NCBI GenBank assembly: GCA_030622125.1
Contig: JAUXGM010000004.1
Coordinates: 1 to 34,156, forward strand
DNA: 34,156 bases
DNA from: a bacterium
GTDB taxonomy: Bacteria; AUK180
Direction: 5' to 3'
Shown: piece by piece, positions 12,051 to 15,775 of the stretch
How the letters are laid out: each line of letters begins with the position of its first letter
Numbering within the stretch: position 1 is the stretch's first letter
Translations under genes and position numbers: made by a program
The notes under the pieces: generated by a model
What the model saw: the letters and a program-made list of their open reading frames with translations, nothing else
What the model was told of the DNA's origin: nothing
The model's database searches: none

Positions 12051-12181
12051 AATCTATCCTCGTTTTTTTAATGTCGTCAATACAAATTTATAAGCATATT
12101 AAAAAACCAATTATTTTTCCTATTCAGTCTACATTTTTTCATAGTAAAAGTCAAATAAAAAATTCCGTCATTCTGAATTAT

Positions 12182-12210
12182 TTCACCGCAGAGACGCAAA
12201 GAACGCAAAG
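12182..12210 (+). repeat. dispersed repeat TTCACCGCAGAGACGCAAAGAACGCAAAG (inverted partner at 12639-12667)
   Basis: Most positions match the reverse complement of 12639-12667 (TTCACCACAGAGACGCAGAATTCGCAGAG). Confidence 0.75.
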
Positions 12211-12249
12211 AAAGAAGAATCCATCCCTGTCCGTCATTCAGAGGCTTTA

Positions 12250-12294
12250 GCCGATTATTCAAATTCCGGTTTATCGGAAAATATCTATCTTTTC
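12250..12294 (+). repeat. dispersed 45-bp repeat, copy 1
   Basis: 38/45 identity by eye to the reverse complement of 15602-15646. Confidence 0.8.
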
Positions 12295-12322
12295 TTTTCA
12301 TTCGTTACTACTTATTTTCTGT

Positions 12323-12358
12323 CATTGCGAAACCTCAATTTATTGAGGTTGTGGCAAT
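12323..12358. repeat. palindromic interspersed element ATTGCgaAACCTCAAtttaTTGAGGTTgtgGCAAT
   Basis: 8-bp perfect inner stem (12331-12338/12343-12350) plus 5-bp outer stem ATTGC/GCAAT. Confidence 0.75.
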
Positions 12359-12433
12359 CTCAAAATCAGGTCACCAGAGCACCAGAGCACAAGTCACCAG
12401 TCAAATACAATTCAAAACTGGTTTTGTCCTGTC

Positions 12434-12499
12434 ATTCCTGTCCCGTATTAAGCATGCACTCAACTTGATTGGGTGTACGGGATAAACTCCGGCAGGAAC
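12434..12499. repeat. nested palindromic element (ATTCCTG/CAGGAAC outer, TCCCGTA/TACGGGA inner)
   Basis: TCCCGTA 12441-12447 with TACGGGA 12476-12482; ATTCCTG 12434-12440 with CAGGAAC 12493-12499. Confidence 0.6.
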
Positions 12500-12638
12500 C
12501 CAGTATTTTTTTTCTTACAACTAAACTCATCACTTACTTTCGTGTGTTCTGCGGTATATCCAGCACCTTCTTGGTGCTGTGGTTATTATATTTCCTTGTT
12601 TTCTTTTGTTTCTTCTCGGGACTAAGCATCTATTATTC

Positions 12639-12667
12639 CTCTGCGAATTCTGCGTCTCTGTGGTGAA
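12639..12667 (-). repeat. dispersed repeat, inverted copy of 12182-12210
   Basis: Reverse complement TTCACCACAGAGACGCAGAATTCGCAGAG. Confidence 0.75.
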
Positions 12668-12949
12668 TCTCTCCTTTCTTCAACTCAAAACTTCTTTCAT
12701 TCCCCGTCCCCAATTTGTGATACCTGTATTGTAAAATTACAACAAATAATAGTCCTATGGTTGAAATATAGTCAAACAGTCAGAATTCTTCGGCACATAT
12801 GCGAATATGCGAATATACGTATATTGCCTTTAAAAAAACTGACAAAATCTCAAGGATAAATTTTAATGATGCGAATAAAAATGCTCCCCCAATTCATTTG
12901 AAATTAAATTAAAAAAGGGGGAAAAAGTGCTAGGTTGCCGGTTTAACGG

Positions 12950-12994
12950 TTTCAGATTTTATTGGTTGAGATTTGAGAAAAAATGGAAAAAGTG
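12950..12994 (+). repeat. direct repeat A flanking the HTH-MNT/HEPN cassette
   Basis: TTTCAGATTTTattggTTGAGATTTGAGAAAAAATGGAAAAAGTG; near-identical copy at 14194-14239. Confidence 0.9.
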
Positions 12995-13080
12995 GTGAAG
13001 TTTCAGAAACATATTGGATTTTGTTTGTAGAAGAAGATGACATTTATTTGACTTAAATAAATAAAAAATATATAATTGAG

Positions 13081-13117
13081 TATAAAAAGTATACAAATGT
13101 ATAAAAAAAGTATACAA
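13081..13117 (+). promoter_or_regulatory. twin operator-like repeats TATAAAAAGTATACAA / TATAAAAAAAGTATACAA
   Basis: Two GTATAC palindromes at 13089-13094 and 13110-13115, 21 bp apart, just upstream of ATG 13132. Confidence 0.55.
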
Positions 13118-13131
13118 CGGGAGATGGAGAA

Positions 13132-13731
13132 ATGGAGTTAGCAATCTTAAATAAATTATTTACTTCCAAAATAAGAGTAAAAATTCTAAACCTATTATTA
13201 TTAAATTCGGAAGATAAATATTATTTAAGACAAATAGAATCTATTATTAAACATCCAGTGAGAGGTATACAAAAAGAACTGTATAATTTAACAAATTTAG
13301 GAATTGTAAAAAAAGAATATGAAGGGAACAGAAATTATTATAGGATCAATAAAAAATGTCCCATCTTCAATGAATTGAGATCTCTTTTCTTAAAATATTC
13401 GGCATTATCCGAAATTCTCAAAGAAAAATTATCCGAATATGATATAGATTATGCTTTTATCTACGGGTCTTATGCTATGGGAACAGAGCGAAAAGGTAGT
13501 GATGTTGACTTATTTATTATAGGAAATGCTACTTCAAAGATCATTTCCACAATGCTATCTGATATTAATGAAATTTTTTATCGCGAAATAAATTATGTTA
13601 TATTTTCTAAAAAAGAATTTTTAAAAAAATATAGATTAAATAATAATTTTATTAAAACGATTTCTAAAAATAAAAAGCTTTTCTTAATTGGAAATGAAAA
13701 TGAGTTTAAAAGATTTATTAAATCAAGGTAA
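13132..13731 (+). CDS. HTH (MarR/ArsR-like winged helix) fused to MNT-type minimal nucleotidyltransferase; putative antitoxin
   Basis: N-terminal wHTH KIRVKILNLLLLNSEDKYYLRQIESIIKHPVRGIQKELYNLTNLGIVKKEYEGNRNYYRIN; NTase core YGSYAMGTERKGSDVDLFIIG (GSx(n)SDxDL). Confidence 0.88.
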   Translation: MELAILNKLFTSKIRVKILNLLLLNSEDKYYLRQIESIIKHPVRGIQKELYNLTNLGIVKKEYEGNRNYYRINKKCPIFNELRSLFLKYSALSEILKEKLSEYDIDYAFIYGSYAMGTERKGSDVDLFIIGNATSKIISTMLSDINEIFYREINYVIFSKKEFLKKYRLNNNFIKTISKNKKLFLIGNENEFKRFIKSR

Positions 13732-14140
13732 ATTAAAACCTCATAAAACAAACAAAGAAGAAATAAAAATGCTTTTACAACTTATAAATAGAGATATTCA
13801 GGATGCTTTGATTGAAACTCTTTCTGAAGATAGACGTTTTGCAATTGCTTATAATGTTATTTTACAATCGGCAACAGTTATTTTATATTGTAAAGGTTAT
13901 AAAACTACAGGCACAGGGCATCATTATACGACATTTCTTTCACTGAAATTCATTCTTGGAAAAAATTATTATGCTCTAATTAATTATTTTAATGATTGTA
14001 GAGCCAAAAGAAATTTAACCGATTATATTTCAGCAGGACAGATATCTGAAAAGGAAGCAAATGAAATAGTTGATGAAGCAAAAAAGTTCCATGAATTTCT
14101 TATAAGTTGGCTGAAAAAGAACTATCCAAATTATTTATAA
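13688..14140 (+). CDS. HEPN-domain protein; putative toxin partner of the MNT protein
   Basis: Overlaps the MNT gene by 44 bp; all-helical, LIETLSEDRRFAIAYNVILQSATVILYCKGYKTTGTGHHYTTFLSL...CRAKRNLTDYISAGQISEKEANEIVDEAKKFHEFL, the UPF0332/HEPN pattern. Confidence 0.8.
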   Translation: MEMKMSLKDLLNQGKLKPHKTNKEEIKMLLQLINRDIQDALIETLSEDRRFAIAYNVILQSATVILYCKGYKTTGTGHHYTTFLSLKFILGKNYYALINYFNDCRAKRNLTDYISAGQISEKEANEIVDEAKKFHEFLISWLKKNYPNYL

Positions 14141-14193
14141 AAAAAGTGTCAGGTTGACCCTATTACAGATGGAATTTCTAACGGGGCAAGCAG

Positions 14194-14239
14194 TTTCAGA
14201 TTTTGAGGGTTTGAGATTTGAGAAAAAATGGAAAAAGTG
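14194..14239 (+). repeat. direct repeat B flanking the HTH-MNT/HEPN cassette
   Basis: TTTCAGATTTTgagggtTTGAGATTTGAGAAAAAATGGAAAAAGTG; identical to copy A over the 11-bp and 29-bp blocks. Confidence 0.9.
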
Positions 14240-14273
14240 ATATATTTATATAAAATAAAAAAAAGGAAATGTA

Positions 14274-14351
14274 ATGAATAACATAAAAAATATTTATGTA
14301 GTTCGTTCTTTACTTGTGTTATTTGCATTAAATAAAATAAAAGAGGCGTAA
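14274..14351 (+). CDS. putative 25-aa leader peptide upstream of fic (MNNIKNIYVVRSLLVLFALNKIKEA)
   Basis: ATG preceded by AAAAGGAAA; stop 3 bp before the Fic ATG; the Fic SD (GAGG) lies inside its 3' end. Confidence 0.35.
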   Translation: MNNIKNIYVVRSLLVLFALNKIKEA

Positions 14352-14354
14352 AAT

Positions 14355-15404
14355 ATGGAAATAAAAATTTTTAAACCAACTTTCCAATATACGGATAAAA
14401 CGGTTAAATATTTAAATAAAATTACAGAAGCCCGAACAATAATAATGAATTCACCGCTTATCCCCAAATGGGAAGTATCATTAAGAAAGAGAGCTTTACT
14501 GACAAATGCCCATTCTTCCACAGCTATTGAAGGCAATATCCTTTCACTTGAAGAGGTTACCGCTCTTTCTGAAGGGAGAGATATAATGGTTAAAAGGAAA
14601 GATAAGCAGGAAGTTCTTAATTATCTCGAAATGCTTGACAAAATTCCTAAATTTGCAAAAATTATCCCCTTTAAAAAGTCGGATTTTTTAAAAATCCATA
14701 AGATTATTGTAAATAATACATTAAAAGACCCGGAAGATGAAGGCAGGTTTAGAACAAGGCAGGTTGTTGTCGGAAATAAATATACAGGTGAAATTGTCTT
14801 CAAACCACCACAAACGAAGAAAGTTTCTGAATTAGTTGATAGATTTCTAAATTGGTTAAATTTAACTACCATTAATAATTTAAGTCCTGTAATAGCAGCA
14901 GGGATAACACATTACGAAATAGTTAGAATTCACCCTTTTGTAGATGGGAATGGGCGAACAGCTCGAATAATTGCAACTCTAATACTTTATAAAAGCGGAT
15001 TTGATACAAAGCGGTTTTTTGCATTGGATGATTATTATGATCAGGATAGAGCAAGATATTATAATACCTTAAAAAATATTGATCAAAATACTCTTGATTT
15101 AACGGATTGGTTGGAATATTTTACGGAAGGTCTTTTAATAAGTATTGAAACGGTTAAAAAAAGGGTGATTGGATTGAGCAAAGATATCAAGATATTAAAA
15201 GAACAGGGACAGGTTGCCTTAAATGAAAGACAGATGAAGATTGTTGAATTTATCTTGAAAAATGGGAAAATTACAAATAAAAATGTAAGAGAATTGTTTG
15301 GATTATCAAATCGGGTTGCCCTTGATGTTTTAAATAAATTGATTAAATTAAAGGTTATAGAAACAAAAGGAAAAGGAAGTGGAATACATTACACACTCAG
15401 ATAA
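14355..15404 (+). CDS. Fic/DOC-family protein (AMPylator-like) with N-terminal inhibitory helix and C-terminal winged HTH
   Basis: HPFVDGNGRTARIIATLIL Fic core; SSTAIEGN matches the (S/T)xxxE(G/N) inhibitory motif; C-terminal NGKITNKNVRELFGLSNRVALDVLNKLIKLKVIETKGKG wHTH. Confidence 0.92.
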   Translation: MEIKIFKPTFQYTDKTVKYLNKITEARTIIMNSPLIPKWEVSLRKRALLTNAHSSTAIEGNILSLEEVTALSEGRDIMVKRKDKQEVLNYLEMLDKIPKFAKIIPFKKSDFLKIHKIIVNNTLKDPEDEGRFRTRQVVVGNKYTGEIVFKPPQTKKVSELVDRFLNWLNLTTINNLSPVIAAGITHYEIVRIHPFVDGNGRTARIIATLILYKSGFDTKRFFALDDYYDQDRARYYNTLKNIDQNTLDLTDWLEYFTEGLLISIETVKKRVIGLSKDIKILKEQGQVALNERQMKIVEFILKNGKITNKNVRELFGLSNRVALDVLNKLIKLKVIETKGKGSGIHYTLR

Positions 15405-15407
15405 TAA

Positions 15408-15443
15408 CCTCACGATCGACCTCACGATCTACCTCACGATTAA
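15408..15443 (+). repeat. three tandem 12-bp repeats CCTCACGATCGA / CCTCACGATCTA / CCTCACGATTAA
   Basis: Period 12 bp, directly after the Fic stop codons. Confidence 0.9.
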
Positions 15444-15489
15444 GATAATAAAGAAGAAAAAAACAGGGACGGTGGCAGAAAGCAATTAA

Positions 15490-15508
15490 CAATTGACAAT
15501 GGACAATT
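15490..15508 (+). repeat. low-complexity dispersed motif CAATTGACAATGGACAATT
   Basis: Related inverted copy at 34134-34156. Confidence 0.6.
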
Positions 15509-15531
15509 AGAAAGACAATAAATAAAGATGG

Positions 15532-15575
15532 ATTCCTAATTCCCCGATCAGGTCGAGGACAGGCAAGTTAGGAAT
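15532..15575. repeat. palindromic dispersed element ATTCCTAA...TTAGGAAT
   Basis: Perfect 8-bp arms 15532-15539 and 15568-15575, in a GATTCCTAA..TTAGGAATGAC context. Confidence 0.65.
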
Positions 15576-15601
15576 GACAGGAAATAAATGAAGAATGACG
15601 G

Positions 15602-15646
15602 GAAAAGATAGATTCTTTCCAAAAAATCGGGGTTTGAATAATCGGC
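15602..15646 (-). repeat. dispersed 45-bp repeat, copy 2 (inverted)
   Basis: Reverse complement GCCGATTATTCAAACCCCGATTTTTTGGAAAGAATCTATCTTTTC matches 12250-12294 at 38/45. Confidence 0.8.
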
Positions 15647-15775
15647 TGATAAATCCCTCGGAATAACGAGAAGATAACGGCGTTTTCAACTGGAGCCTCT
15701 TGATTGACACCGATGCTATTGTTTTTTTGTTTTCGGTGTATTAGTTAGATGTCAAGATTAAAATTATATAATTAT

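Follow-up and report, generated by a model that had tools for sequence, protein, structure and literature searches.

A dispersed repeat joining a Y1 transposon end to a sigma70-like promoter sequence, with copies ahead of an MNT/HEPN pair and a fic gene

The two direct repeats that flank an HTH-MNT/HEPN gene pair in the window (the whole analysed stretch of 34,156 nucleotides) are probably copies of a dispersed, non-autonomous repeat in which an end of a TIRYT-type Y1 (HUH) transposon is combined with a sigma70-type promoter, found before individual accessory genes or operons, whose transcription it would supply or would once have supplied. The sequence and the coordinates of both repeats were verified (12950–12994 and 14194–14239; they align along about 46 bp and differ little, with a 1-base gap among the differences). 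Their last 29 bp are identical (12966–12994 and 14211–14239, spaced by 1245 bp), and this identity is far beyond chance, since the exact 29-mer was present at these two sites only in the 2.08 Mb assembly, together with one copy with 3 mismatches elsewhere, while the reversed-sequence control gave no match in the same assembly. The weaker upstream similarity noticed in the initial annotation was borne out, with AAAAAGTGYNAGGTTG present in both copies and followed by a middle part which differs between them. The repeat unit of about 45 bp described there exists, but it belongs to a longer unit (about 12922–13003 and 14141–14250), which is one of many copies. The features of the locus are as follows.

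12051..15775, no strand: accessory block of about 3.7 kb between the amidohydrolase gene and ybeY, absent in G001 and G003, with one other gene at this place in G002
about 12922–13003, + strand: copy 1, whole
12927..12955, + strand: copy 1, transposon-end half, GTGCTAGG followed by the tandem words GCCGGTTT/AACGGTTT and CAG
12950..13001, + strand: copy 1, promoter half, TTTCAGATTTTATTGGTTGAGAT..., with the -35 element TTGAGA (12973–12978) and a decayed -10 element TGAAGT (12996–13001)
13048..13076, + strand: own sigma70-like promoter of MNT/HEPN, TTGACT-N17-TATAAT, 11 of 12 consensus bases
13089..13115, + strand: operator-like GTATAC repeats (13089–13094 and 13110–13115) between the MNT promoter and the start codon
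13132..13731, + strand: HTH-MNT nucleotidyltransferase, 199 aa (PADLOC PDC-M05A, E 1.8e-49)
13700..14140, + strand: HEPN-like partner, 146 aa (PADLOC PDC-M05B, E 4.2e-55)
about 14141–14250, + strand: copy 2, whole, starting directly after the HEPN stop codon
14146..14199, + strand: copy 2, transposon-end half, GTGTCAGGTTGACCC, a middle in common with contig C184 and GTTTCAG, 5 bp past the HEPN stop codon
14194..14246, + strand: copy 2, promoter half, -35 TTGAGA (14218–14223), N17, -10 TATATT (14241–14246)
14355..15404, + strand: Fic-domain protein with a C-terminal wHTH, 349 aa (PADLOC SoFic, E 5e-59)

The profile search with the repeat resulted in 20 full or partial matches in the genome of the window itself (G000), 16 in G002, which belongs to the same family but to a different (sister) genus, and 2 partial matches in G001, while G003 and G005 gave no match at E<=0.01. 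Among the searched genomes from outside the phylum, which is represented by seven genomes in the collection, two weak partial matches only were detected. The genomes are drafts, and several of the copies are located at contig ends.

As one of two possibilities, the initial annotation had suggested that the MNT/HEPN pair is a mobile cassette, which inserted or excises when its direct repeats recombine. The exact 29 bp repeats at a distance of 1245 bp do enclose precisely the MNT and the HEPN genes, slippage between direct repeats is physically possible, and a similar repeat-gene-repeat arrangement is present at G000:C150. However, the two window copies are not mutual nearest relatives: copy 1 is closest to the copy on contig C144 (91% over 69 bp) and copy 2 to the copy on contig C184 (87% over 133 bp), while they match one another over 47 bp only. 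The search for the repeat, genome-wide and in related genomes, placed it at many unrelated sites, including those ahead of unrelated genes, and homologous MNT/HEPN pairs in G005, G012, G022, G026 and Methanoregula were without the repeat. Moreover, the relatives in which the site is empty miss the complete 3.7 kb: in G001 and G003 the amidohydrolase gene directly neighbours or overlaps ybeY, and both the MNT/HEPN and the Fic module are missing, so that the gain or loss concerned the entire block, fic included. On the basis of synteny, relatedness of the copies and the repeat-free homologues, the excising cassette was rejected as very improbable. The bracketing is explained by each copy preceding one gene or operon, with the next gene, fic, having a copy of its own. 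The intergenic DNA flanking the block (12180–12660 and 15450–15700) is packed with other repeat families of the TCTGCGTCTCTGCGGTGA and GGATTCCTG..GGAATGAC types, and the contig end (33919–34061) holds a tandem repeat of a 71-bp sequence (94% identical, period 72).

The alignment of the copies demonstrated that the repeat consists of two halves, a 5′ transposon-end half and a 3′ promoter half. The former includes, in this order, an A-run, GTGYCAGG, two tandem 8-bp words and TTTCAG. The words differ from copy to copy, being GACGGTTT twice in C144, GACGCTTT twice in three of the G002 copies, GCTTCTTT twice in two others from G002, as well as GGTGCTTT/GGTTCTTT and others, and they agree within a copy at 6.95 of 8 positions versus 5.50 of 8 in random between-copy pairing (permutation p<5e-5). 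Copy 2 of the window, the C184 copy and C150a have a longer, different middle. The 3′ half, TTTCAGATTTTATTGATTGRRATTTGAGAAAAARTGGAAAAAGTGRTATAAT, holds TTGAGA-N17-TATAAT or near variants, and most of the complete copies have TTGAGA-N16/17-TATAAT or a sequence near to it. A REP hairpin was rejected: the sole consensus stem is weak (-1 kcal/mol), T-rich and located in the promoter half.

A Y1 transposase gene located exactly between purC and purH in G000 (C122; L148 1930–2770) and G002 (C188; L091 3845–4905) is flanked on both sides by the 5′ half, inverted and free of the promoter half. These were the only Y1 genes found with the 5′ half inverted on both flanks, and this end was absent from every other Y1 locus in the survey. 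In G001, G003, G004 and G005, purC and purH abut, which identifies the transposase and its ends as inserted DNA; the first purH codons originate from the transposon end (MKPSNRQPG in G000:C122 and MKASKRQPG in G002:C188). The tandem word covaries by genome, with GACGGTTT shared by the C122 flanks and the dispersed copy C144 of G000, and GACGCTTT by the C188 flanks and dispersed G002 copies. The G002 transposase (324 aa) possesses the HUH and Y motifs NHFH and YIILNP and a long C-terminal extension, while the G000 gene is probably inactive, judging from the missing N-terminal part. Both matched the NCBIfam model of REP-associated tyrosine transposase below the cut-off. Since the dispersed copies are single-ended, co-oriented within contigs and not organised as inverted pairs, they are not simple MITEs of the purC-purH transposase; an inverted pair of ends enclosing an element, typical of MITEs and REPINs, was not found among them.

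The TIRYTs, or TIRtrons, are described in the main text of Di Nocera et al. (2013, PMC3733652) as Y1 HUH transposase genes with 20–30 bp terminal inverted repeats (TIRs) and no REP hairpin; the TIR copies can form dispersed families, and according to the main text of PMC6006769 the TIRYTs correspond to TnpA subclass 2.1. The family resembles this group in having its 5′ half as inverted repeats around a Y1 transposase gene and in being dispersed, and it differs from the main-text descriptions in the GTGYCAGG tag with the tandem 8-bp word and in the promoter half on the dispersed copies. The motif GGGGWSAS is absent from the repeat family, which has GTGYCAGG instead, while GGGGACGG is carried by further Y1 genes in these genomes; in the main text of PMC3733652 this motif is reported for many but not all TIRs, hence it is not strictly defining. 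With the REP/REPIN elements and their RAYTs (PMC3116915, PMC8266576) the family shares short intergenic repeats, often at gene 3′ ends, and a single-copy Y1 transposase, but it has neither a GTAG tetranucleotide, and so not the canonical REP arrangement of GTAG/GTGG beside a stable hairpin, nor a strong hairpin, and its copies are single and low in number.

The gap-free survey of the ends included 46 genes of the Y1 type, called here TIRYT-like, of which 22 belong to these genomes and 24 to genomes outside the phylum. Inverted ends with a score of at least 17 were found in 36 of them, with the 95th percentile of the null at 12 and its maximum at 62, an outlier presumably caused by pairing of related sequences. 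Many of the ends are composed of a tag (GGGGACGG, AGGGACG, GGGGTCAGG, GGTGTCAGG, GGTACCGGG or GTGCCAGG) and a gene-specific word of 7–9 bp repeated in tandem, for example, GTAGAAAAA, GTTGCCTTT or TTGCATTT, each twice. The tandem word was significant at 0.05 against shuffles in 17 of these 36 taken individually (binomial 3e-13), with a mean best word match of 6.5 of 8 versus 4.8 in shuffled and 4.6 in outside control sequence. Such ends were present at the loci L097–L123, L148 and L199–L226, some of them outside the phylum, so that the ends of such TIRYT-like genes often consist of a tag and a transposase-specific tandem word of 7–9 bp. The genes of this type are described in the main text of PMC3733652 as TIRYTs with TIRs and the GGGGWSAS motif, the survey in the main text of PMC6006769 could recognise nothing REP-like at the termini of TnpA subclass 2.1 (TIRYT), a large group, and the main texts of both papers contain no mention of the tandem word.

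An integron-like array, with the repeat as an attC-like site and the genes as cassettes, might be suspected from G002:C31 and G000:C150, where same-direction repeats, often placed right at a stop codon, lie between single accessory genes, and from the inverted-repeat middles present in two copies. But no gene in the seven genomes reached the cut-off of the integron integrase model TIGR02249, for which the matches obtained were Xer-like and below the cut-off, with all 14 controls matching as well. Furthermore, the aligned copies have no conserved R''/L''/L'/R' layout, and the repeat combines a promoter with a match to a Y1 transposase end. With no integron integrase found in these genomes and without the attC layout, this explanation is largely refuted and hardly credible.

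In 13 of the 15 promoter-complete copies with a readable downstream region, an ORF of at least 80 aa started on the same strand within 160 bp, as compared to the background of 0.19 at random intergenic positions. One of the two exceptions, C50, is followed by a short ORF only, while in the other, C175, the repeat leads directly into a 3′ third that resembles part of the gene following the element at C150. Comparison of G000:C175 (L086 4630–5027) with G000:C150 (L082 223–1349) showed that the N-terminal part of the gene is a separate ORF at C150, which suggests a deletion or recombination beside the element. The downstream genes are mutually unrelated and include MNT/HEPN (PDC-M05), Fic (SoFic), RhuM-Fic, Schlafen AlbA_2, DUF3267, HATPase, YhcG nuclease, a DUF4062 protein, an AbiEii-like pair, CitX-CitG, a KAP NTPase and a type II methyltransferase. 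Defence families (PADLOC, E<=1e-10) were represented in 6 of the 15 first genes, as compared to no more than 9, among the matches listed, of the 77 remaining ORFs on these contigs (Fisher p about 0.015), in a post hoc count with two first genes unscanned and two further weak Argonaute-associated matches uncounted. The enrichment is modest and suggestive only, and a preference of the repeat for defence genes would be deduced from it. Several promoter copies are followed by a short ORF ending like KIDxMVYKLYDLTxEE (L075 3700–3790 and 900–970, L076 about 800–910, L083 about 340–400), a tail resembling the C-terminal tail of restriction-modification methylases; the peptide KIDxMVYKLYDLT had no match among solved structures.

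Mobile promoters were reportedly studied by Matus-Garcia et al. in 2012 and van Passel et al. in 2014. Putative elements of this kind, as cited in PMC8049555, are short repeats acting as promoters upstream of unrelated genes, and the repeat family likewise places a promoter-like sequence, here a predicted promoter, before unrelated genes; it differs from the elements as cited there in the attached end of a specific transposase and in the downstream genes leaning to defence families. The same pattern could be created by genes being transferred horizontally along with the regions upstream of them. In a related reading, either the genes brought their own promoter regions with them when acquired, or a regulon has the promoter half as its shared, immobile promoter, with the transposon-end half being incidental. 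The existence of copies with the promoter half only (C150b, C175, C28b) and with the transposon end only (G002:C66, G002:C327, G000:C151) agrees with it, but the two halves are joined at one and the same point in many copies across two genera, the downstream genes are unrelated, and the MNT/HEPN homologues elsewhere have no upstream repeat sequence, making this reading unlikely. The promoter half was not found at the transposase flanks in G000 (C122) or G002 (C188).

The preferred explanation, a transposon end combined with a promoter, can be followed at the two modules of the window. The proposal that the repeat is a shared leader controlling both of them holds in so far as a sigma70-like promoter within the repeat points at each module, but the -10 element of copy 1 is decayed and MNT has a stronger promoter of its own. 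Because the former reads TGAAGT and another promoter is available, the MNT/HEPN operon is probably independent of copy 1 by now, while fic is probably driven by copy 2, whose promoter is located about 108 bp upstream. The GTATAC sites may serve as an operator for the HTH-MNT protein; in the region 13080–13116 each of the two is placed inside a GTATA-rich direct repeat. The MNT protein has the active site GSx10DxD (GSYAMGTERKGSDVD in P0001; Pfam NTP_transf_2), and the search for loci related to MNT gave one distant match only. The motif of the HEPN-like partner is RxKR[N/H]xxxY, kept as such or as a close variant across the 7 aligned members, and the RNase motif RX4-6H was not found. In the presence of an HTH-MNT protein and a HEPN-like partner in an overlapping operon, the pair is similar to the MntA-HepT type VII toxin-antitoxin and PADLOC PDC-M05 systems, while it differs from MntA-HepT in the strong match to PDC-M05A/B with the MntA equivalog model matched below its cut-off only, and in the partner lacking RX4-6H.

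Taken together, the transposase would have spread the repeat, the copies of which precede individual accessory genes or operons, frequently of the defence or toxin-antitoxin type, with copy 2 probably supplying the transcription of fic and copy 1 having once supplied that of MNT/HEPN; that the promoters work and that the events followed this order we infer from the sequences. As a more tentative and rather doubtful generalisation, the TIRYT-class Y1 transposases may recognise a hairpin-free tag with a tandem, transposase-specific word of 7–9 bp, one such end having here become fused to a sigma70 promoter and spreading, thereby switching on newly acquired defence genes. The tag with its transposase-specific tandem word offers a simple and directly testable hypothesis for recognition by the TIRYT enzymes. 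If true, a promoter-bearing transposon-end repeat located before unrelated defence genes would be a concrete answer to how acquired defence genes become expressed in a new host.
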